Virus record (IMG/VR): IMGVR_UViG_3300036814_000106
Coordinates: 1-26,922 of that record
Source: a virus
Reading direction: 5' to 3' (one strand)
DNA: 26,922 nt
The notes under the pieces are model-generated. The model saw nothing but the letters and a program-made list of their open reading frames with translations. It did not search any database and was not told the DNA's origin. The translations under genes and the position numbers were made by a program. Positions 1-15,627 of the stretch are shown one piece after another (position 1 is the first letter of the stretch; each line of letters opens with the position of its first letter).

Positions 1-1824
1 CCTATCTAAGGTAGATATACCTCGGCCTAGTCTATCAGCCTGCCTATCGAGGCTACGTCCTGCTCCTCGTTTACCCGCTTTGAACGCTCTCTGAATTTGG
101 CCCCAAGGTTGTTTTGCTCCTCGACGCATTTCCCCAAATTCCTGTCCACGTTGTTCCCGTTCAGTCATAGGTTGTTGAGGTACATAAGACGGGTCAGCCC
201 GTCTTGTAGATGGACTCTCAGATGATTCTGTATCAGGCTTTGACCCCCTACCCTGCCTAAAGATTCTCTGCAATCGTCCTAAAGGCTTCTCTGCTCCCTC
301 ACGCATTTCTCCAAACTCTTTCCCACGTTGTTCACGTTCAGTCATAGGTTGTTGAGGAACGTAACTGGGGGGTGCAGTAGAAGTAGATGCCCCTACATTA
401 GCCGTAGGAATATTAGGAGGCGTAGGCTGATTCGGCTCTGGATTTTCAGAGCCTGGCGGCTTAGGAGGTTCTTGCGGAGTAACATTAGTGGGGGGGTTAG
501 AATAAAAAGGGGCTTTATCTAATGGACGGCGGGGTCTAGATTCCCTCTTCTGCAAAACATTGTAAAATATTTCTAAAGATTTCTTTAACTCCCCATCCAG
601 TTTATCTCCCAAATCTTGCCCAGATTCATTTACAACCCACGGGGGTTTAACATGTATGGGTATACCACCATCATCAGTTTCAGTTTCAACTACTGGGATA
701 TACCGCATAGTCTCTATGTCAGGTTCTGACGGAAAACCATACTCCTGAAGAAAGCGATGATGTTCAGCATCCCTTCCCTCAAAGTTATCAAGGGTAGGAA
801 ATGATTTACCGCTCTTCAAAGGGTCTGCTTCTTTTGCCATCCAATTTGTAAAAGATTTCTCAAAGTTGATTTTACCAGTATTGTCAGACCTCATAATTAC
901 AATCTTCCTATGAACTTGTATTTGCGGGGAATCTTTTTCTCCCGCTTCAAATAACTGGCAGTAATCCCCAGGCATTATATCGCCTACTACTACATCACAA
1001 GTTCGTGTATCAGAGTTAAAGTATTTGCAGTGCCCACAGTTGATTCCAAGGTTCATTTCAGGGGCCGTAGCGTCTCTATAACCACACTGGTCTTTATCCA
1101 CTTTTCCTGTTTGGGGCATCTCAGCCTTCAATATCTCAAAACTAGCTCCCTGATTTACCCCCTTCTCACAAACCGTCACTTCTGCTAATTCCATTTCATC
1201 CACTTGCATATACGGAGTTAGCCCCTTCTTCATGTTCTGGATTTTAGTAGCACTTCCTGCTATAGAATAGCTTTTTAACAGCCCATTATTAATCTGGTCT
1301 GCCACCTTTTTAGAAATAGCTGTATCATCCCGTAGTTCACAAATAAAGAATAATCCGTTTTCCCCCACCCCAGACTTAAATATCTGCCCACCTTTAGATA
1401 TATAAGCAGGCAAAGCCCAACCTACCTGAACGTCTGAATGCAAGACCATAACATTACGAGTACGTTGATTACTCATAAATTTTTGAAAAGCTCTATTCAA
1501 AGCATTAGTAGTAATTAGATGCCCCTCTCTATCAATCATTTCAATTGATGCAGGGCCACCAATTACCATAGGGTCAACCATATCCATTTTTTGAATTTCT
1601 GTAGCTGCTTTTTTATATGTAGGACTATCAGGAAAAGCTCTATGTAAAGTTAAAATCTCTGCCTTAGATGAGTTTCCTGCGTGATAATTCCGCTCATATT
1701 CTTGCAAAGCATCTTGGATATCTTCCACAGTAGTACGTCCTGACTTACCCTTTTCCAACCAAAAGAGGGAATCAGGTTTAGCAGCAGCAGTAGAGGCATT
1801 TATATACGGTGTTGCAATACTCAT
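1..1824 (-). CDS. Prohead protease-type protein with Fe-S-like Cys cluster and long C-terminal extension (3' end outside window)
   Basis: The frame is open from the ATG at 1824 to the window edge, giving 608 residues without a stop. Residues about 83-235 look like a phage prohead (capsid maturation) protease of the XkdF/S78 type: 'SIEMIDREG' near 93, His129 in 'VLHSDVQVG', Ser187 in 'KSYSIAG', then 'AEVTVCEKGVNQGASFEIL'. Such proteases cleave scaffold and capsid proteins in the procapsid. Residues 247-289 hold five cysteines (C247, C263, C266, C276, C289) in a pattern resembling high-potential iron-sulfur proteins. A Pro-rich linker (about 440-486) leads to two copies of a 41-residue repeat. 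The ATG overlaps the upstream TAA (TAATG) and I see no Shine-Dalgarno, so translation is probably coupled. The gene lies after the capsid gene, whereas the protease usually sits between portal and capsid. The protease call is fairly secure; the function of the C-terminal half is unknown. Confidence 0.75.
   Translation of the reverse strand, partial: MSIATPYINASTAAAKPDSLFWLEKGKSGRTTVEDIQDALQEYERNYHAGNSSKAEILTLHRAFPDSPTYKKAATEIQKMDMVDPMVIGGPASIEMIDREGHLITTNALNRAFQKFMSNQRTRNVMVLHSDVQVGWALPAYISKGGQIFKSGVGENGLFFICELRDDTAISKKVADQINNGLLKSYSIAGSATKIQNMKKGLTPYMQVDEMELAEVTVCEKGVNQGASFEILKAEMPQTGKVDKDQCGYRDATAPEMNLGINCGHCKYFNSDTRTCDVVVGDIMPGDYCQLFEAGEKDSPQIQVHRKIVIMRSDNTGKINFEKSFTNWMAKEADPLKSGKSFPTLDNFEGRDAEHHRFLQEYGFPSEPDIETMRYIPVVETETDDGGIPIHVKPPWVVNESGQDLGDKLDGELKKSLEIFYNVLQKRESRPRRPLDKAPFYSNPPTNVTPQEPPKPPGSENPEPNQPTPPNIPTANVGASTSTAPPSYVPQQPMTEREQRGKEFGEMREGAEKPLGRLQRIFRQGRGSKPDTESSESPSTRRADPSYVPQQPMTEREQRGQEFGEMRRGAKQPWGQIQRAFKAGKRGAGRSLDRQADRLGRGISTLDR
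67..189 (-). repeat. Intragenic repeat copy 2 (41 codons)
   Basis: This is the second copy of the repeat at 244-366 (residues about 546-586), starting 'SYVPQQPMTEREQRG' and ending in a Lys/Arg-rich stretch. The N-terminal half of the unit is almost identical to copy 1. The C-terminal half ('GQIQRAFKAGKRG' against 'GRLQRIFRQGRG') has diverged but keeps the amphipathic, basic pattern. Further copies could lie beyond the left edge. Confidence 0.85.
244..366 (-). repeat. Intragenic repeat copy 1 (41 codons)
   Basis: This is the first of two tandem-type coding repeats in the C-terminal part of the prohead-protease-type gene (residues about 487-527). It starts 'SYVPQQPMTEREQRG' and continues 'EFGEMREGA'. 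The second copy starts exactly 177 bases (59 codons) further along; the first 22 residues of the two copies differ at one position. The DNA is also conserved, including an identical 23-base block at 335-357 and 158-180, so the duplication looks fairly recent. Confidence 0.85.
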
Positions 1825-3434: not shown

Positions 3435-4799
3435 TTAGACGCTTAGGTCACAGATTTTAGCCTGAACAAAGAAGTTCTTGCAGCGCAACTCACCAAGAGT
3501 GTACAGCAAGCCCCTGACAACAAGGCTGTTAGCAGCGAAGTAGTCACGGTTTTCAATGTACTGGGTAGGCTGGGCAATTGACATCTCAAGATAGTCAGTG
3601 TCCAGTACGTAAACGTTAGTACCCAGAATTGCACCAGCGGAGCTTACGCTCTTCGGCACATCGGCATCAGGTAGGATGGGGATACCCATATAGGTAGCCA
3701 AAACCAATCCAGTACGAGTACCAGGGAATGTACGCTCAGAGCCTACACCAACCTGATATTCTTCCTGTCCCATATAGCGTTGCTGGGAATTGAGCAGTCT
3801 TTCCAATTTGAAGTACTGGTCATGTCCCATGAGAATCAACTTAGGTTCGCCACCATTTTCCCGAATCTTCTGGATACAAGTATCAATTAGATTAAGGGAA
3901 AGGTCACGGCCTACACCAGCGTTGTGGCTGACGTTAGCAGCAGCGTTCCAACCACCAGCAGTACGAGCAGCCAACGTTAGGTCAAAAGCCCTAGCGTTAC
4001 CAGCCAAACCACCAGAAGCAGCCCCGTCTTCAGCTACGATATCATCCAAGCTGGTGAACCCAGCGCGGGAATATACGTAAGCCAAGTCACCAGCAGCCCA
4101 GGCAGGGCTAGAGGTATCGACGGTTACAGTAGCAACGTTATGGGCAGTACTTGAAGCACCACCAACTGTGACACCAGAGGTAAGGTCATGAGCAGTTTGG
4201 TCACCGTCGTAACGGGCAATCTCATCACCTATATGGAAGTTATTAGCAATCGCAGAACTGCCGAAAACAACAGTAGTACCACTACCACCAGTGGCCCTCG
4301 CAGCAGCCAAGGACAACAGTTCAAAGTTGACCTCTTTCATGTGGTCTAGCTGGGCGTTCTCATTCTCCAACGCCAGCACGTCACCGACACCACCTTCTAG
4401 TTGGGCAGTGAAGACTGACTTGACCGATGCACCGAAGGTTGTAGCAACGATTCGGGGCAAGCTGGAAACCGTCTGGATAGCAGAAATATCTACTGTCGGG
4501 AGGTTACCAGTTTCTAGGATAGGCGCACTGCGGTTCGCACCACGGTCAGACCGAATCCTCCAACCAGCTGTATTACCCCACACGGTACGTGGGATAGCAT
4601 TAAAAAACCTAGTTTGGTTGTTTAGAGCTTGCCAGACCTTCCGTCCATACGTGGTATTAAAAATACCAGTAGCGGTATCAACCGTGAACGGAACGCCGAT
4701 TCCAGCACTGGCTTTCTTCATGAAGCCTGCACCGAAAACACTCTGATACAACCCTCTTTGGGACTGAGCAATATACTCAGCAAGGGATGGATTAGACAT
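3435..4799 (-). CDS. Major capsid protein (HK97-fold type)
   Basis: This is a 454-residue protein. The C-terminal part, 'VYVLDTDYLEMSIAQPTQYIENRDYFAANS' split across about residues 393-425, followed by 'RGLLYTLGELRCKNFFVQAKICDL', is typical of HK97-fold phage capsid proteins of this gene arrangement. The N-terminal region has a helical stretch and 'FFNAIPRTVWGNTAGWRIRSDRG', consistent with an N-arm and E-loop region. Context supports it: a coiled-coil acidic scaffold candidate upstream, a decoration-like gene and strong terminator downstream. The Shine-Dalgarno AAGGAG lies 8 bases before ATG. I cannot see from sequence alone whether the N-terminus is cleaved by the protease. The family call is secure by context; the fold call rests on pattern recognition. 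Confidence 0.85.
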   Translation of the reverse strand: MSNPSLAEYIAQSQRGLYQSVFGAGFMKKASAGIGVPFTVDTATGIFNTTYGRKVWQALNNQTRFFNAIPRTVWGNTAGWRIRSDRGANRSAPILETGNLPTVDISAIQTVSSLPRIVATTFGASVKSVFTAQLEGGVGDVLALENENAQLDHMKEVNFELLSLAAARATGGSGTTVVFGSSAIANNFHIGDEIARYDGDQTAHDLTSGVTVGGASSTAHNVATVTVDTSSPAWAAGDLAYVYSRAGFTSLDDIVAEDGAASGGLAGNARAFDLTLAARTAGGWNAAANVSHNAGVGRDLSLNLIDTCIQKIRENGGEPKLILMGHDQYFKLERLLNSQQRYMGQEEYQVGVGSERTFPGTRTGLVLATYMGIPILPDADVPKSVSSAGAILGTNVYVLDTDYLEMSIAQPTQYIENRDYFAANSLVVRGLLYTLGELRCKNFFVQAKICDLSV

Positions 4800-7969: not shown

Positions 7970-8090
7970 ATTTCCTCCTTACCGTCAACACAATAATAGT
8001 GCCACACATACGGCAATTCAAATCTTTATCGTCATTGACATACATGGTGCCTGAACACTTAGGACATATATTATCAGAAATACTACTCAC
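7773..8090 (-). CDS. Zinc-ribbon protein with Arg-rich tail overlapping the phosphoesterase gene
   Basis: The frame encodes a clear four-cysteine zinc ribbon (C9-x2-C12 ... C26-x2-C29) followed by a hydrophobic strand and a long Arg/Gly/Asp-rich tail. The likely start is GTG at 8090, overlapping the upstream stop by 8 bases; TTG codons at 8096 and 8102 are alternatives. Only about 40 codons lie outside the phosphoesterase gene; the remaining 65 share DNA with its N-terminus in a different frame. The ribbon itself looks real and fills an otherwise empty gap. The tail may be translated as read, or the ribbon may be joined to the phosphoesterase by frameshifting. Function unknown. Confidence 0.55.
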   Translation of the reverse strand: MSSISDNICPKCSGTMYVNDDKDLNCRMCGTIIVLTVRRKYDSRTGKIRDNKKEARGGDVDGDITVDRGGIRDTDSQDNRPTLVRQRGFQRRRGRPRRTLGVDRG

Positions 8091-9555
8091 CGTCAACTGC
8101 AAATAATGCAGAGATTAGTGGGGTTTCATCACCCGAATCCTCTAGCATTTTTCGCATTGCCTCTAATTTAGCAACTTTTTCAGCTTCGGGTATCCACATT
8201 GCATCACTTTCTTCTTGAGTTACTTCAGGGTCTTCTGTATCTTTTGCCCCCCCTCTAGCTAAAGCGTCTTGAGCAAAGGTATCTGGGCCACTTCCATATG
8301 CAGCCATTTGCAGCCCCAAACCAGCGACTGGCTGTGAACCCTCTGGTTCAGTATTGCTCTCTTGTTTACGTTTTCGTTGCATATCATTCTCCTTAATTAC
8401 AGCATCTTTATGGGGAGCTTCATTAGGATTATCCCCACCCCCATCAATAAACGCCTTTTGAGGATGCGGCCCATCCGCAGATTCGTTATTCCCATCGGGG
8501 GATATAAACGTAGTTGCCGGGGGAACTGCTTTTTGCACATAGGAATTATGCTTTCCCCAATCTGGGGAACGCCTCGTTTTAGCATTGCCAACAGGATTAG
8601 CACTATCATCTCTGGGTTCTGTAGCTAATACACTGGCTTCCATTCCTCCTGGGAGTCCCATATTAATGTGGGGTTCATTATCTTCAGCAGTTTTTAATGC
8701 ATCCTCTAATGGACGGCTTGTCCTCTTATGATTAAGAGCATCCTCTGTAACATCTTTCTTCCAATTAAGTACGACAGGCGAATGGGTTCTATTGTTCCAG
8801 GCGTGTCCTGTTGCACCATTCCCTGTCTTATCATCATCGAGTCCTGGGGCAAGGCCCATTCTTTTAGCCATGTGGGGAGAACCATCATATAGGAACTGCA
8901 CAAGACGTTCTACCCCACTTTTCTTCTCTTTACCCATCAATTTCTTTCGTTTCTTATCCTGCCGTTTATGGTTTTTCAGTTGTTTTTTCTTTGTTCCTCT
9001 GCCTCCATAGGTAGGACTAAAAATACCAGCATTAGTCGAGGTAAAGACTGTATCGGATAGGCCGTTAAATGCCCCTCCGTCTCCTCCCCCTTCTCCTTCT
9101 TTCTGTAAAGAATTCTCCATCCCCATTCTAGCCCTCTCCCGTGCTGAGGAGGGCTTCACTTCTTCCCACTTAGAGGCATTGGATGTATCATAATCTTCTC
9201 GTTTGCCATATCTGTGAGTAGACCCTGTCACTGGCCCTGAGGTTCCTCCCTCTTGTTGAACAGGAAATTGACGAGGCATACCGCCCCACGGCGATGACAC
9301 ATTTCTTTTACGAGCAACACCCTCATCGCGCCAATGTCCCATAATATCACGGGGATTTTCTAGGGAGCCTTTCTCTTTAGAATGGTCAATTGGCCCAAAT
9401 CTCTGAAACCCACTGCCAGCTTCTTTTCCTTTCGCCCAATTACGGCGAGTTTCTTCAGAGGCTTCATCTAAATCATCATCCTTGCTAGGCACAGTCCAAT
9501 CATCAGCTTTTTCCACGAACTTCATTAGCTTTTGAACATTATCTTTATTGGGCAT
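8083..9555 (-). CDS. Large low-complexity hydrophilic protein after portal
   Basis: This 490-residue protein is almost wholly hydrophilic and rich in Gly, Asp, Glu, Lys, Asn and Pro, with a strongly basic patch (about 190-215, 'KKKQLKNHKRQDKKRKK'). No enzymatic motif, membrane segment or Cys is visible. It is probably largely disordered. I prefer the ATG at 9555, 6 bases after GAGG and overlapping the portal stop by 11 bases; the ATG at 9561 abuts the GAGG. Position between portal and capsid suggests an internal head or ejected protein, or a substrate of the maturation protease. That is inference; I do not recognise the family. Confidence 0.6.
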   Translation of the reverse strand: MPNKDNVQKLMKFVEKADDWTVPSKDDDLDEASEETRRNWAKGKEAGSGFQRFGPIDHSKEKGSLENPRDIMGHWRDEGVARKRNVSSPWGGMPRQFPVQQEGGTSGPVTGSTHRYGKREDYDTSNASKWEEVKPSSARERARMGMENSLQKEGEGGGDGGAFNGLSDTVFTSTNAGIFSPTYGGRGTKKKQLKNHKRQDKKRKKLMGKEKKSGVERLVQFLYDGSPHMAKRMGLAPGLDDDKTGNGATGHAWNNRTHSPVVLNWKKDVTEDALNHKRTSRPLEDALKTAEDNEPHINMGLPGGMEASVLATEPRDDSANPVGNAKTRRSPDWGKHNSYVQKAVPPATTFISPDGNNESADGPHPQKAFIDGGGDNPNEAPHKDAVIKENDMQRKRKQESNTEPEGSQPVAGLGLQMAAYGSGPDTFAQDALARGGAKDTEDPEVTQEESDAMWIPEAEKVAKLEAMRKMLEDSGDETPLISALFAVDGE

Positions 9556-11596
9556 TTTCATCCTCGTCATCATAGTCCCAATCATTGTCTATTTGTTTGT
9601 TATTACCTGTAGGACTATAACTGGCCCCAGGCGTATGCGGCTGTTTGTAAACTGGCCCCATACCAAAGGAAGCTTTTTCAACGTGTGTCACACCCGTGGG
9701 ATGTAAGTTAGCAATGTAGTCTACCCCATCTTGAGCAAACCACATCTTAGACCCATCATTAGTAACTTGCTTAATTATCGGCGTTAAATATCCCTTTGAC
9801 ATCAGCCCCTGCACCCAATTTTTGGGGGGTTCAACATCTTTAGTTGGGTCATCATCAGGTTTACGATTATCTGCATATTTATCTAACTCCTCAGTAGTCC
9901 TCTCCTTCCTTGGCAGATAGTTATATGTATAGTCTTTATTTTGACCTCCTTTTAAGGGAGCGAACTCCATCATCTGCATGGGCATAGGAGGCATAGGCTG
10001 GGCCTCTGCTGATTCTCCCCCACCTGGGGCAGACCCAGTGCGTCCAGGGGCTTGATTCACGCCCTCAGGAGGAGCAGGGGCTTGTCCTGGCTGTTGACCA
10101 GATTGTGCTTGCTCTTCCATCATCTGTTGTTGTTGTTCCATTTGTTCCATCTGTTGCTTTTGCTGGTCAATTGCCATATCCATCTGTTCCCCTTGCTTTT
10201 CCATCATATTGACAGGCTTCCCGAATATCATAAACTCAGCATTTTCTACAGGAACTCCATCATCCTTTAACCGAATATCAAAACCTAAAGCAACAAACTG
10301 ATTAGCTATTTGTGCCTTCTGTTGTGAGAAGCTAATACGAGTAGCTTCCGCTTTCTCCTCAGGATTAGGTAATTTCAGTCCCCAATCAGTTATACCAAAG
10401 GCTTCTAAGATTTGGGGGAATACTTTTTCATGGAACAGTCTCTGGTCACCTTCAACCACCCTACTCATAACAACTAATTGCTGAGTTTGGGTAGAGAGGC
10501 CACCAAAGGCTTCAGGTGCGCCCTGCCATGCAGGAGTTACACCCCACATAGCTGCTATCCGTTCCCGTATCTCTCCCCGTACAGGCAGATAATCCATCTC
10601 ATTAAGAGTATGGAACAATCGTACCATGTCAACTCTGCCCCTATTATTACGAGAGGAAACAGCTACCATTGGTATATAGTTGGGGTCAAGTCTTGTTTGC
10701 GCTGCAATCTGTTGACGTTCTCTACGCAAAGACTCTGGGTCATCAGTAAACACCATCATCATACTAGCTGGCATTTTCCGTTCAAAGAAGTATCTATACA
10801 GATTTTTATCCATACCAATCAATGTTAAAGCTTTTTCAAAGATTGTTAAGATAGGACTCCATCCATAAGTTTCGCTTGGCGAGAACTTAGATAAATGAAT
10901 GACTTCTCCATCCAAGAAGAACAAATGTTGATTCCGATGGTAATACTTATACATCACAGCTTGTAATTTTAAACCACAATCAGTGTTAAGACAGTCACCA
11001 GGGTCTTCTTTAACCTCATCCCGATGAATAGGACACAGGAAATGGGCATTTTTTGGCAATCCCGCTGCATCAAGGTCAAACTCCACTAATGCGGGGTTCA
11101 AGCGTCTAATTTCATTCACTTTAGAACGCATGGTTCCATCATCTAACTTTCTATATTCTTTCACTAAATATAAGAAAGCATCGTCAATGGCATTTAGGTC
11201 AAAATGAAACTGACGAAGCGTTTCTTCCAGCGATTGGTCAAAGATATTACAATCATCCATAAAGGAAACCAATCTTTTCTGCTGTTCTTTGTCAGGGTTT
11301 TCAACTAGGGGAACCCACTCAATTCCCCGCCTGAATACTTCCCCAGTAATGTGTTGTAATGGAGAACGCACCTCTTCAATTGAATATGCCAACATCTGTA
11401 AGTCCATTACAAGCTGTTGACGATAAGCCATTTGATGGCGTACCCATGTATTAACTACATGGTCTAGACCAATAGTAGGCGCACGGCCCGTTTCGCCATT
11501 CGATTTCATTAAGTCTAAGAAATTAATCTGTTCATTCAAATTAATGACAGTTTGAGCTAATTTGGGCACCTCAGGTAAATAATCCTGTAGTCTCAT
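9545..11596 (-). CDS. Portal protein with zinc-binding insertion and long C-terminal extension
   Basis: This 683-residue protein has portal features in order: an N-terminal helical region, 'GEVIHLSKFSPSETYGWSPI' near 230-249, 'IAAMWGVTPAWQGAPEAFGG' near 347-366, and 'TQTQQLVVMSRVVEGDQRLF' following. Portals form the dodecameric DNA channel at one capsid vertex and bind the large terminase. Two things are unusual. C188-x2-H191-x10-C202-x4-C207 looks like a zinc-binding insertion. Residues about 462-683 form a long extension that starts with a Gln/Met-rich stretch and a Pro/Gly-rich linker and ends very acidic. AGGA lies 7 bases before ATG. The portal call is supported by length, motifs and neighbours. 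Confidence 0.8.
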   Translation of the reverse strand: MRLQDYLPEVPKLAQTVINLNEQINFLDLMKSNGETGRAPTIGLDHVVNTWVRHQMAYRQQLVMDLQMLAYSIEEVRSPLQHITGEVFRRGIEWVPLVENPDKEQQKRLVSFMDDCNIFDQSLEETLRQFHFDLNAIDDAFLYLVKEYRKLDDGTMRSKVNEIRRLNPALVEFDLDAAGLPKNAHFLCPIHRDEVKEDPGDCLNTDCGLKLQAVMYKYYHRNQHLFFLDGEVIHLSKFSPSETYGWSPILTIFEKALTLIGMDKNLYRYFFERKMPASMMMVFTDDPESLRRERQQIAAQTRLDPNYIPMVAVSSRNNRGRVDMVRLFHTLNEMDYLPVRGEIRERIAAMWGVTPAWQGAPEAFGGLSTQTQQLVVMSRVVEGDQRLFHEKVFPQILEAFGITDWGLKLPNPEEKAEATRISFSQQKAQIANQFVALGFDIRLKDDGVPVENAEFMIFGKPVNMMEKQGEQMDMAIDQQKQQMEQMEQQQQMMEEQAQSGQQPGQAPAPPEGVNQAPGRTGSAPGGGESAEAQPMPPMPMQMMEFAPLKGGQNKDYTYNYLPRKERTTEELDKYADNRKPDDDPTKDVEPPKNWVQGLMSKGYLTPIIKQVTNDGSKMWFAQDGVDYIANLHPTGVTHVEKASFGMGPVYKQPHTPGASYSPTGNNKQIDNDWDYDDEDENAQ

Positions 11597-12089: not shown

Positions 12090-13940
12090 TTACGAAATCT
12101 TACACGCACTCCACCCACACACTTTACAAGTTTCACAACCACTTTCTTGGACAATCAACGGAGACTCACAATCACATTTAGGAGTTTCCCCTTCTAAATG
12201 TCCTGTCACCAATACCTCTTTCTCTCTACTGCCATTACGATATACTGTAATCCCTTTGCATCCCGTCTCCCAAGCTGTCATATAAGCTGCAAACACATCT
12301 TCTAAGGTAGCATCAGACGCAAAATTAATGGTCTTAGATATGCCAGAATCCACATATTTTTGGAAACGGGCTTGCATTAAAACATGGTCTTCAGGAGAAA
12401 TATCTTGGGCCGTTACATATACTTCTTTAACCCAATCTGGGACATCATCACGGTCTTTTAAAGAACCACCAGAGGCCAAATAAAGCATAAGGTCTTCAGA
12501 ATAGAAATTATTTTCTTGCGCGTCTTTTTTAAACTCTTCATTACTATAGAATAGGGTCTGACCTTCCAATATATTTTGTTTACGCCACGCCAAAGCAAAG
12601 ATAGGTTCAATTCCACTAGCGCACCCCGCAATCATAGAAATAGTGCCCGTAGGGGCTACCGTCAAACGACAAGCGTTCCTATAATTTTCTTGAATCTTAT
12701 AACTACTTTGTTCCCAAGCGGGGAAAGTCCCTCTAACTGCACCCAATTCTAATGATTTAACACTTGCCATATGATTAATAAATCGCATCACCTCGTCCCC
12801 AACTGTCCGTGCCTCCTCAGAATTATACGGTATTCGCAATTTAATCAATAAATCAGCGAAGCCCATAACACCTAAGCCAATCTTACGAGTAGCCTTCGTC
12901 ATTTTTTCAATCTCAGGAATGCTGTAATCATTCGCATCAATAACATTATCAAGAAAATGTACCGCATTACGCACTACGTGTTGAAGCCTATCCCAATCAA
13001 TCATGCCTTCCCAACCCACGGCAGACTGGTCAAGCCCAGTAGTCCGAATAAACTTAGCAAGATTAATTGACCCCAAATTACAACTCTCATACCCTAATAG
13101 GGGCTGTTCTCCACAAGGATTCGTTGCAATTATATCCCCGTATTCCTCACCAACTTTATTGTCTTCATTCATTCTATCGAGGAAGACCACCCCAGGTTCT
13201 CCATTACGCCACGCACCCTGAACAATCTTTAAAAAGACTTCTCGTGCATTTAAAACTGAAACTGGCAAACCTGTTTTAGGGTCATTTAATGTATATTCCT
13301 GGCCCATTTTAACAGCCTCCATGAAGGGAGTGTCAACAGCAACAGAAATATTAAAATTATGGATGTCACCCTCTACTTTCTTACATTCAATAAAAGAAAG
13401 GATGTCTGGGTGTCGCACACTCAGAACAGCCATGTTAGCCCCATCACGCTTGCCACCCTGCGTTATCATACTGGACACCCTAGAGAGGGTTTTAAGCACC
13501 TCTATGGGGCCACAGGCAACGCCATGAGTAGATTGAATCTTGGCTCCCTTAGGTCTAATTTTAGACAGAGCAAAACCTGTGCCACCACCAAATTTCTGCA
13601 CCATAGCTGCATCCGTAGCAGACTTCATGATTTGTTCCATACTATCTTCCAATGGCAAAACAAAACAGGCTGACAAGGTGCCTTGAGCAGTGCCTGCATT
13701 CATTAGTGTGGGGGAATTAGGTAGAAATTCCAGATTCCATAGCATCTCAAAGAAATTCTGTTCTAAGAGTGTGACTTCATTAGGAAGAACTTCATAATAA
13801 CTGTCTACCTCAGCTATTGCTTTCGCCACCCTCCAAAAGAGTTCTGGTGAATCTTCTGTTGGGTTCCCATCCGTATCTTTAAGAAAATATCGGTGTGCCA
13901 AAATGGTTTCTGCCTGTTCAGAAATGTGTGTGTCTATCAA
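12090..13940 (-). CDS. nrdJ: Adenosylcobalamin-dependent (class II) ribonucleoside-diphosphate/triphosphate reductase
   Basis: It converts ribonucleotides to deoxyribonucleotides for phage DNA synthesis using coenzyme B12. Numbered from the TTG start (616 residues), the active-site set is visible: N274-x-C276-x-E278 ('NPCGEQ'), and the redox pair C92 ('LSACFVLP') and C287 ('ESCNLGSINL'). 'VAPTGTISMIAGCASGIEP' is also typical, and a Cys-rich C-terminus ('CETCKVCG') serves as the re-reducing tail. No NrdB-type gene is present, as expected for class II. The best start is TTG at 13940, four bases after the terminase stop and next to GGGGGTAGGAG. A GTG at 14021 would force a 77-base overlap and add residues unlike the family. 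Class II use implies a host that makes or imports B12. Confidence 0.92.
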   Translation of the reverse strand: MIDTHISEQAETILAHRYFLKDTDGNPTEDSPELFWRVAKAIAEVDSYYEVLPNEVTLLEQNFFEMLWNLEFLPNSPTLMNAGTAQGTLSACFVLPLEDSMEQIMKSATDAAMVQKFGGGTGFALSKIRPKGAKIQSTHGVACGPIEVLKTLSRVSSMITQGGKRDGANMAVLSVRHPDILSFIECKKVEGDIHNFNISVAVDTPFMEAVKMGQEYTLNDPKTGLPVSVLNAREVFLKIVQGAWRNGEPGVVFLDRMNEDNKVGEEYGDIIATNPCGEQPLLGYESCNLGSINLAKFIRTTGLDQSAVGWEGMIDWDRLQHVVRNAVHFLDNVIDANDYSIPEIEKMTKATRKIGLGVMGFADLLIKLRIPYNSEEARTVGDEVMRFINHMASVKSLELGAVRGTFPAWEQSSYKIQENYRNACRLTVAPTGTISMIAGCASGIEPIFALAWRKQNILEGQTLFYSNEEFKKDAQENNFYSEDLMLYLASGGSLKDRDDVPDWVKEVYVTAQDISPEDHVLMQARFQKYVDSGISKTINFASDATLEDVFAAYMTAWETGCKGITVYRNGSREKEVLVTGHLEGETPKCDCESPLIVQESGCETCKVCGWSACKIS

Positions 13941-13944
13941 TCTC

Positions 13945-15627
13945 CTACCCCCTATGTCCACAATATATACAAAGTTTCCGTTCTGGTACCCAAAATTCTG
14001 GTTTGCAAATAATCTCGTCACAAATTGGATTTGGACAATCTGCCATCGTTAAGTCTGGGTTCATTGCCCTAGTATAATCCATCTTGATGCCACCTGGCAA
14101 GGCCATTTCCTTAACTGGGTCAAGTTCAGTTTCCAAAACTGCTGGTGGTTCCCCTGTTTCCTTCATCTCTGCTGGGTCTTCTGGGTCAAGAAATCCTTGC
14201 AAGTCACCTAGATTGGTAAAACCAAACTGTCCTGTTTCCCAGGAAGCTAATAAGGCCATGCCAATAGAAAAGAATGCATCTCCATGCCCCATAGGGGTTT
14301 CAGGAGCCTTTAATTCATTACTAACTGACAAGATTTGCTGCTTCTGCCGCTCATCTTTTAGAAGTTTAATTTTCCCCGAAAGAACATATTTTTCAAAAAT
14401 CTGTGCCATTGTGTTTTTGGACTTAACAGTAAAGGTTAGGGGCTTCCACCTATAATCCAACCCCCTATCCTCTAATTCTCCTCTAGTATTATCTACATAC
14501 CCTTTATCTATATCAAAATTCTCTGCTACTTCATTTAAGTATTCTATTTGGTCAGAATAGTTCCACCCATCCAACCAAGACTGATGAAGTTGGCGGCATG
14601 TACCATCTCCACCTCTCTCAAATATAACTAGGTGAGAAGGGTGCCGTTTTTTACCAACATCAAACCCTGCAAAAATAAATGAATCTTCTTGTTTCCTATA
14701 TTTACGGGTTGAAGGCAACTCCCGCAACGTCTCATCTTCGCAACTGACAATATCTTCCTCACTAAAATAGGCCTCAGTAGCAAAGTGAGGAACCAGCAGA
14801 AACTCTGATGCAAAGGATTTGGGCCTAGCTTTTTGTTGTTGCAACAGCCAGTTCTCATCATATAACTCAGGCATCAACACCCTGCGCCCAGGAACGGGGT
14901 CAAGGGCTGGCAACACTCTAGATAGGAAACGTTCATCCTTCTGGAGGTTAGCAAGTAAATCTCCAGGCATCATAGGAGTTCCTAGAACTATAACAGGCAC
15001 ACCCTTCAAAGGAATGAATAAAGACTCAGTTAAGAAATGGTCTTCAACCTTTGTTACCTGTCCAATATTCAAAGGGTTTTCAGGGTCACGGAGAATGTCA
15101 TCTGCAATCAACGCACCATTAACATGCATACCCCGCTTAAATGAAAAAAGACCCCCATGCATAATATTCATAGGCTTATTATTAATCAGATATCTAGCGG
15201 AGAAGTCAGCTTTGGGAGTACGGTTATCCATCCACTCTACTAATTGAGGGTTTCTAGAGATGGCCTTATTAATTTCAGAGATATGGTAACGGGCCATCCC
15301 ATCACTATACGATAAATACAGCACAGAACAGTCCCTAGGAGCCGTTAAGAGCCTCCACACACTAAAGGCGTGGCCCAATAGGGTACTTTTAAAATGGAAC
15401 CGTGGGAGGATGGCACAATAATTTAACCCTGCTTGCATAGCCTTTTCAATATCTTCAGCCACTATCCCAACATGCCAAGCTTTAAAGTATTCTGGGTTAT
15501 CAAAACTTTGTGCCCATATATTAACGAGAAACTCATGGAATGACCCTACCTTGGCTTTTCCAGACGTTAGTAATCCTGCTGCTAATCTATCAAATGCATC
15601 ATTAAAAGTAGTTATCTCTTCTGTCAT
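13945..15627 (-). CDS. terL: Terminase large subunit
   Basis: This 560-residue DNA-packaging motor combines ATPase and nuclease. ATPase: Walker A-like 'LPRFHFKST' (74-82) and Walker B 'ALIADDI' (172-178). Nuclease (RNase H-like): D323 in 'FAGFDVG', D379 in 'GYVDNTRGE' and D450 in 'GHGDAFFS'. The Walker A has Phe where Gly is common ('RFHFKST' against R-G-x-G-K-S/T), as in several phage large terminases with a deviant P-loop. The last 30 residues contain five cysteines (C531, C536, C541, C553, C556), an unusual zinc-binding-like tail. ATG overlaps the small-subunit stop (ATGA), and GAGGAG lies 11 bases upstream. The neighbouring small subunit upstream supports the call. Confidence 0.92.
   Translation of the reverse strand: MTEEITTFNDAFDRLAAGLLTSGKAKVGSFHEFLVNIWAQSFDNPEYFKAWHVGIVAEDIEKAMQAGLNYCAILPRFHFKSTLLGHAFSVWRLLTAPRDCSVLYLSYSDGMARYHISEINKAISRNPQLVEWMDNRTPKADFSARYLINNKPMNIMHGGLFSFKRGMHVNGALIADDILRDPENPLNIGQVTKVEDHFLTESLFIPLKGVPVIVLGTPMMPGDLLANLQKDERFLSRVLPALDPVPGRRVLMPELYDENWLLQQQKARPKSFASEFLLVPHFATEAYFSEEDIVSCEDETLRELPSTRKYRKQEDSFIFAGFDVGKKRHPSHLVIFERGGDGTCRQLHQSWLDGWNYSDQIEYLNEVAENFDIDKGYVDNTRGELEDRGLDYRWKPLTFTVKSKNTMAQIFEKYVLSGKIKLLKDERQKQQILSVSNELKAPETPMGHGDAFFSIGMALLASWETGQFGFTNLGDLQGFLDPEDPAEMKETGEPPAVLETELDPVKEMALPGGIKMDYTRAMNPDLTMADCPNPICDEIICKPEFWVPERKLCIYCGHRG

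Follow-up and report, generated by a model that had tools for sequence, protein, structure and literature searches.

The window analysed here, a stretch of 26,922 nucleotides (positions 1 to 26,922 of IMG/VR record IMGVR_UViG_3300036814_000106), contains at one end a gene in which a prohead protease domain is directly followed by a block of cysteines. This locus raises the question whether the block is a domain of the high-potential iron-sulfur protein (HiPIP) type, as a sequence-only reading of the window had suggested, and, if so, what such a domain would do on a capsid maturation protease. HiPIPs are known from photosynthetic bacteria and from bacteria that oxidise iron or sulfur, in which they carry electrons in the periplasm.

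The gene (3..1824, minus strand) encodes a prohead serine protease of the S78 type. The encoded protein starts with MSIATPYIN (translation of 1824..3, minus strand), and 607 residues lie within the window, where the frame is open at the contig end; relatives of the protease reach 1144-1199 amino acids and have a tail rich in R, G, Q and A. The protease core spans residues 77-239 (1108..1596, minus strand; PF04586, E 7.8e-6; PHROG head maturation protease, E 1.6e-15). Within it, the Peptidase_S78 match (Pfam PF04586) covers residues 155-239 and scores 26.6 bits against a cut-off of 21, which supports the earlier assignment as a protease. The alignment of the protease family shows no variation in the peptides VLHSD and YSIAGSA, which are inferred to be the putative catalytic His and Ser sites. 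The gene context is that of an S78 protease: a major capsid protein of the SU10 type (3435..4799; Pfam PF17236, 9.1e-11), a portal protein (9545..11596; PHROG portal, 1.7e-40) and the terminase are all encoded on the minus strand, as is the protease. The gene behind the portal (8083..9585, minus strand; hereafter the post-portal gene) is without a HiPIP-type module in the window, and its counterpart in sister viruses carries one. The terminase and portal genes are separated by a ribonucleotide reductase gene (12090-14021, minus strand) that overlaps the last part of the terminase open reading frame.

No close isolate of the window virus was found among phage records. The nearest proteases in these records are the S78 (Pfam) prohead proteases of the Haloarcula viruses HCTV-1, HVTV-1 and HCTV-5, which resemble the window protease in the core (~29-32% identity). 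HCTV-1 gp111 (L107:3698-5695) differs in that it is without the HiPIP-type domain, and its acidic tail bears a different cysteine cluster (CPECGVPFEECGC). In the window (3-600, minus strand) and in L111, L130 and L155 the protease runs into a tail of ~600 residues rich in R, G, Q and A, which is probably disordered and possibly represents a built-in scaffold or DNA-binding part; in L111 and L130 this tail terminates in FAKAFGLA(A/S)TRR.

The cysteines C247, C263, C266, C276 and C289 are located where the sequence-only reading had placed them (translation of 1824..3, minus strand). The motif order that it had given (CxxC - C - C) is also correct, but the spacing is not, as CDVVVG represents Cx4G and not Cx3G. 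Conservation was analyzed in an alignment of 61 IMG/VR relatives of the protease with 47-89% identity. The four predicted ligands Cys263 (1036..1038), Cys266 (1027..1029), Cys276 (997..999) and Cys289 (958..960, all minus strand) are invariant in 40 out of 40 distinct relatives bearing the block; for Cys289 this corresponds to 40 of 41 aligned residues, the exception being a sequence without the domain. Cys247 (1084..1086, minus strand), which had been listed together with the other cysteines, was retained by only 18 of the 39 sequences. It is not a conserved ligand, and a role as fifth ligand was rejected for this reason. The Cys3-x12-Cys4 spacing is fixed and a Gly is present at Cys3+5 in each of 37 sequences. 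In about 10 distinct relatives (block-less sequences L013, L041-L045, L047-L050, L054, L057 and L061) the whole block of ~45 amino acids is absent by clean deletion, with the core and the downstream region still aligning, indicating that the block is an optional module that does not belong to the protease fold. Relatives lacking the cysteines had been named as evidence that would speak against the HiPIP likeness; the outcome was in favour of it, as every relative with the block has all four cysteines and the others lack the entire block. The dN/dS ratio over residues 240-296, calculated for the window and those close relatives for which pairs were computable, is 0.03-0.16 and similar to that of the protease core. 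The HiPIP-type block is thus under purifying selection. L028, L020 and similar relatives contain extra CIDGSC(L) repeats, such as TCIDGSCLVQKQECDGSCFLQK, between the protease core and the HiPIP-type domain.

The HiPIP-type domain comprises residues ~240-295 (940..1107, minus strand) and matches the viral HiPIP profile A4 with an E-value of 3.6e-27, the window sequence itself being included in A4. A profile made from 19 viral domains gave 13 matches at E<1 in the PDB, 12 of which are HiPIPs, including PioC (6xyv, 4.9e-8), 3h31 (1.2e-5), 1hlq (8e-4) and 1isu (0.007). Profiles of the protease family found PioC in the PDB as well, with an E-value of 2.2e-6 over nearly the whole domain and followed by other HiPIPs when 17 members were used, and with an E-value of 6.8e-6 when 36 members were used. 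A stand-alone viral copy matched 3h31 (1.5e-5) and PioC (5.7e-5). Among protein families, the best matches of the viral domain are Pfam HIPIP (PF01355), which matches 8 of 17 family members at E<10, and the NCBIfam model for the Iro iron oxidase, also a HiPIP (NF041615), which matches 11 of 17 members with a best E-value of 5.5e-7. The protease domain of L034 (32.1 bits) and the stand-alone copy L172 (22.7 bits) pass the Pfam HIPIP cut-off of 22. The window's own domain alone scores below this cut-off, as do most of its relatives, and its link to the HiPIPs runs through its family; the search against PF01355 that had been proposed earlier was therefore positive for L034 and L172 and negative for the window copy taken alone. 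The zinc-ribbon search proposed alongside gave no convincing match, the only match of the window copy to zinc-binding profiles being zf-primase with an E-value of 0.82. Matches to P2X receptors, obtained in narrower PDB profile searches, reflect a likeness around the cysteines only and disappeared with the broader profile. Matches at E 2-9, among them Rhizobium phage RHEph10 and Synechococcus S-CAM3, were regarded as chance; such cysteines are absent from RHEph10 gp005.

The cellular members of PF01355 and NF041615 are stand-alone, exported proteins, whereas the window copy is neither stand-alone nor exported to the periplasm and forms an internal domain of a capsid protease. We therefore refer to it as a HiPIP-type domain and not as a HiPIP electron carrier. 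Export and the stand-alone state describe the setting in which HiPIPs usually occur and do not define the domain itself.

PioC of Rhodopseudomonas palustris TIE-1, a HiPIP of 54 residues represented by PDB entries 6xyv, 7a4l and 7a58, allows a comparison residue by residue. Its cluster ligands are Cys22, Cys25, Cys34 and Cys47, with Trp46 and Tyr50 nearby in the numbering, and aromatic residues at Cys4-1 and Cys4+2/3 are a conserved HiPIP feature (PMC7462912). A second study lists Tyr14, Phe30 and Tyr48 (Trp in PioC) together with Cys24, Cys27, Cys36 and Cys49 (PMC10654088). All cysteine and aromatic positions cited from these two papers have counterparts in the window domain, and the aromatic residues that had been noticed next to the cysteines match the positions described for PioC (PMC7462912; PMC10654088). 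Tyr249 (1078..1080, minus strand) is the counterpart of the PioC-type N-terminal Tyr (Tyr14 in PMC10654088), and this position is Tyr or Phe in 31 and Leu in 6 of 37 sequences. Phe269 at Cys2+3 (1018..1020, minus strand), corresponding to Phe30 (PMC10654088), is Phe in 35 and Tyr in 2 of the 37. The two positions around the last cysteine (PMC7462912) are always aromatic: Tyr288 at Cys4-1 (961..963, minus strand) is Tyr in 26 and Trp in 11 sequences, and Phe292 at Cys4+3 (949..951, minus strand) is Phe in 28 and Tyr in 9. PioC and the window domain are thus alike in the cysteine motif (CxxC-x8-C-x12-C in PioC and CxxC-x9-C-x12-C in the window), the aromatics at Cys4-1 and Cys4+3, the Phe at Cys2+3, the N-terminal Tyr and a length of ~50 residues. 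They differ in a 4-residue insertion between the N-terminal Tyr and the first Cys, which are separated by x13 in the window and by x9 in PioC, in the portal copy L152 and in stand-alone viral copies. PioC is moreover a free periplasmic electron carrier, whereas the window domain lies within the chain of a cytoplasmic capsid protease. Taken together with the PDB profile matches and the score of L034 above the Pfam cut-off, these positions sustain the comparison to HiPIPs as far as the sequence goes.

Structure prediction was performed with AlphaFold. The model of the protease together with the domain (39 sequences) had a pLDDT of 42, which is too low for use, and the model of the domain alone (36 sequences) was of low confidence (pLDDT 58) and gave no significant match in Foldseek and VIA-align. 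PioC reportedly has no clear secondary structure and a fold that is driven by the cluster (PMC7462912), and the poor outcome of AlphaFold and Foldseek therefore argues neither for nor against HiPIP identity.

Gene contexts independent of the protease were obtained by scanning IMG/VR with a DNA pattern that represents the motif alone. The pattern was found in 84 stretches with x9 spacing and in 108 stretches with x8 spacing, giving ~190 viral copies, and a control x9 pattern, in which the codon for the last Cys was replaced by a Ser codon (AGY), gave no matches in IMG/VR. The x9 pattern gave 14 matches in 84,980 GTDB genomes, a number that does not allow a fair comparison of abundance with IMG/VR, as viral copies had served to adjust the pattern. 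Twelve of these 14 resemble ordinary small HiPIPs of Hyphomicrobiales, Sulfurimonas, Thiobacillus and others, and the remaining two (L212 and L222) look like chance matches. Of the 84 viral x9 loci, 58 belong to the protease family of the window and the rest are located on other proteins, many of which are virion proteins. The module was found on the post-portal protein of sister viruses (L115 and L148 groups), on XkdF-type proteases (L297, L303 and L273; Pfam PF14550, E 9e-23 to 4e-6), at the N-terminus (L152 and L247) or C-terminus (L224; Pfam portal, 6e-77) of portal proteins, on tail proteins (L260 and L313; PHROG tail) and as stand-alone viral open reading frames of 52-118 amino acids. 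Some small viral open reading frames with the motif have no particle context. In phage records, a stand-alone copy is encoded by Synechococcus phage S-SRM01 (gp061). Actinomycetia phage DSL-LC01 (OQ999401) encodes a capsid maturation protease that is S78-like, with an S78 match just below the cut-off, and that ends in CANCILYEGGSSCKIIDAEVEPGGYC with the same CxxC-x8-C-x12-C motif. The DSL-LC01 protease is distant from that of the window (35.7% over 28 residues; E 0.07, a weak match) and has the domain at its far C-terminus.

The scan also revealed unusual domain combinations. L224:3917-6193 (plus strand) encodes a portal fused to an inorganic pyrophosphatase domain (PF18823, 2e-19) and the C-terminal HiPIP motif. 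In L178:3-1334 (plus strand) a low-molecular-weight phosphotyrosine phosphatase domain (PF01451) is followed by two tandem HiPIP-like four-cysteine motifs. In L110:11279-12229 (plus strand) and L237:1391-2299 (minus strand) the HiPIP motif precedes a long metallothionein-like cysteine-rich stretch (CNCAGMSKCIGCACSGCQTC...CCSDCS) in one phage protein.

Within the lineage of the window virus the module occurs in different genes. Six contigs (L115, L138, L144, L176, L241 and L291) encode a portal that is 57-70% identical to that of the window (57-72% for the sister viruses overall) and, where covered, also share the terminase (61-63% identity) and the ribonucleotide reductase with it. These same contigs bear the module in the post-portal gene, at the position of window ORF 8083-9585. 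A tblastn comparison with L109, L138 and L176 showed that residues 238-337 (814..1113, minus strand) are common to the window protease and the sister post-portal protein; this similarity in several sister contigs indicates that more than the cysteine block has moved. Contig G024 (44 kb) contains both genes, a protease without the module and a post-portal protein with the module. Two modules in one contig were not found among the contigs searched, which are up to 82.7 kb long, and as the contigs are mostly fragments the one-per-genome pattern is provisional. A strict rule of exactly one module per virus of the lineage was rejected, as contigs G001, G007 and G010 (L013, L047 and L050) contain both genes and carry the module in neither, indicating that it is dispensable in some viruses.

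A peptide TVFTSTNxGI[FY][ST]PT[YFH]GG, often located after a Gly-rich stretch, is shared by post-portal proteins that are otherwise very different (residues ~182-198 of window ORF 8083-9585, minus strand, and L109, L112, L115, L123, L148, L156, L174 and L253) and may be a signal by which head-carried proteins are packaged or targeted. Post-portal proteins of sister viruses have swapped enzyme domains and look like cargo: L115:1566-3863 (minus strand) has an HNH nuclease and a PAP2 phosphatase, and L156:830-2215 (plus strand) has a domain of the RNase H superfamily.

We consider it rather probable that residues ~240-295 form a portable HiPIP-type [4Fe-4S] module on virion-assembly proteins, whose presence at the particle matters and not a control of the protease. 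This interpretation builds on the sequence homology, the invariant ligands, the purifying selection, the portability and the one-per-contig pattern, and it predicts cluster binding, entry into the particle and a role there. In the host cytoplasm, Cys263, Cys266, Cys276 and Cys289 would hold one [4Fe-4S] cluster, supplied by the host's Fe-S assembly system, around which the domain folds. The adjacent aromatics would shield the cluster, and being buried it should make the domain stable to oxygen. Because the domain is located between the S78 core and the long basic tail, we propose that it enters the procapsid with the protease; in other viruses, whichever carrier protein bears the module would bring it to the assembling head. 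There it may serve as a compact, oxygen-tolerant Fe-S centre, either redox-active or as a structural attachment site in the particle. The carriers differ and the module is strongly constrained, suggesting that it acts at the particle, or where the particle is assembled, and does not control S78 catalysis. Its presence on other virion proteins likewise speaks against a role limited to the protease.

The main rival is zinc in a HiPIP-derived fold: the domain would descend from HiPIPs and bind zinc as a structural zinc knuckle, and would only stabilise a linker or a contact between proteins of the head. Two pairs of cysteines are able to hold zinc, the cytoplasm is a reducing environment, Cys4-1 is more often Tyr than Trp in the protease family (26 and 11) and the window domain alone has the weak zinc-finger match mentioned above. 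The best family matches, however, are HiPIPs and not zinc ribbons, and zinc binding would not demand the HiPIP aromatic shell and the x12 spacing that are kept in 37 of 37 sequences, which makes this explanation unlikely. A redox switch, in which the state of the cluster controls autoproteolysis of the protease or the timing of capsid maturation, would fit the location of the domain directly behind the S78 core, between core and tail in one chain, and the purifying selection acting on it. It is somewhat less likely still, considering that proteases up to ~68% identical are without the domain by clean deletion (L013), that sister viruses have the module on a different protein and that the portal and tail carriers contain no protease in the chain.

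Iron loading of the particle, exploiting host iron uptake or supplying Fe-S to the next host, is related to the 'Ferrojan horse' idea, which concerns phage tails. The fusions to tail proteins (L260 and L313) would expose the module, and L110 and L237 couple it to long cysteine-rich stretches. A HiPIP cluster, however, is buried, one per carrier protein represents little iron and a module inside the head could not meet a receptor, so that we regard iron loading as improbable. That the cysteines are a chance arrangement without any cofactor could be argued from the poor structural model, but is already contradicted by the conservation (40 out of 40), together with the profile statistics and the control pattern without matches, and hardly deserves credence. 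Returning to the portable [4Fe-4S] module, a further-reaching possibility, which we put forward tentatively and consider doubtful, is that many tailed viruses build a high-potential [4Fe-4S] cluster into their particles by means of a HiPIP module fused to whichever head, portal, protease or tail protein is suitable, as a redox-active virion cofactor of a so far undescribed kind. Such a part might, for example, be reduced inside the cell and oxidised outside.

No paper on a HiPIP associated with a prohead protease was found in a literature search of partial coverage, and an earlier notice is possible; the publications retrieved for HiPIP with phage, bacteriophage or prophage deal, judged by title and abstract, with cellular HiPIPs or other subjects. 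The motif CxxCx[YF][YF]...Cx2VxGx[IV]...[WY]C offers a sequence handle for phage open reading frames annotated as hypothetical. The occurrence of a HiPIP-type domain in capsid proteases, among them that of the marine virus studied here, and its relocation between virion proteins within one lineage represent a new biological setting for this domain and let one expect an Fe-S cluster during virus assembly or in the virus particle.
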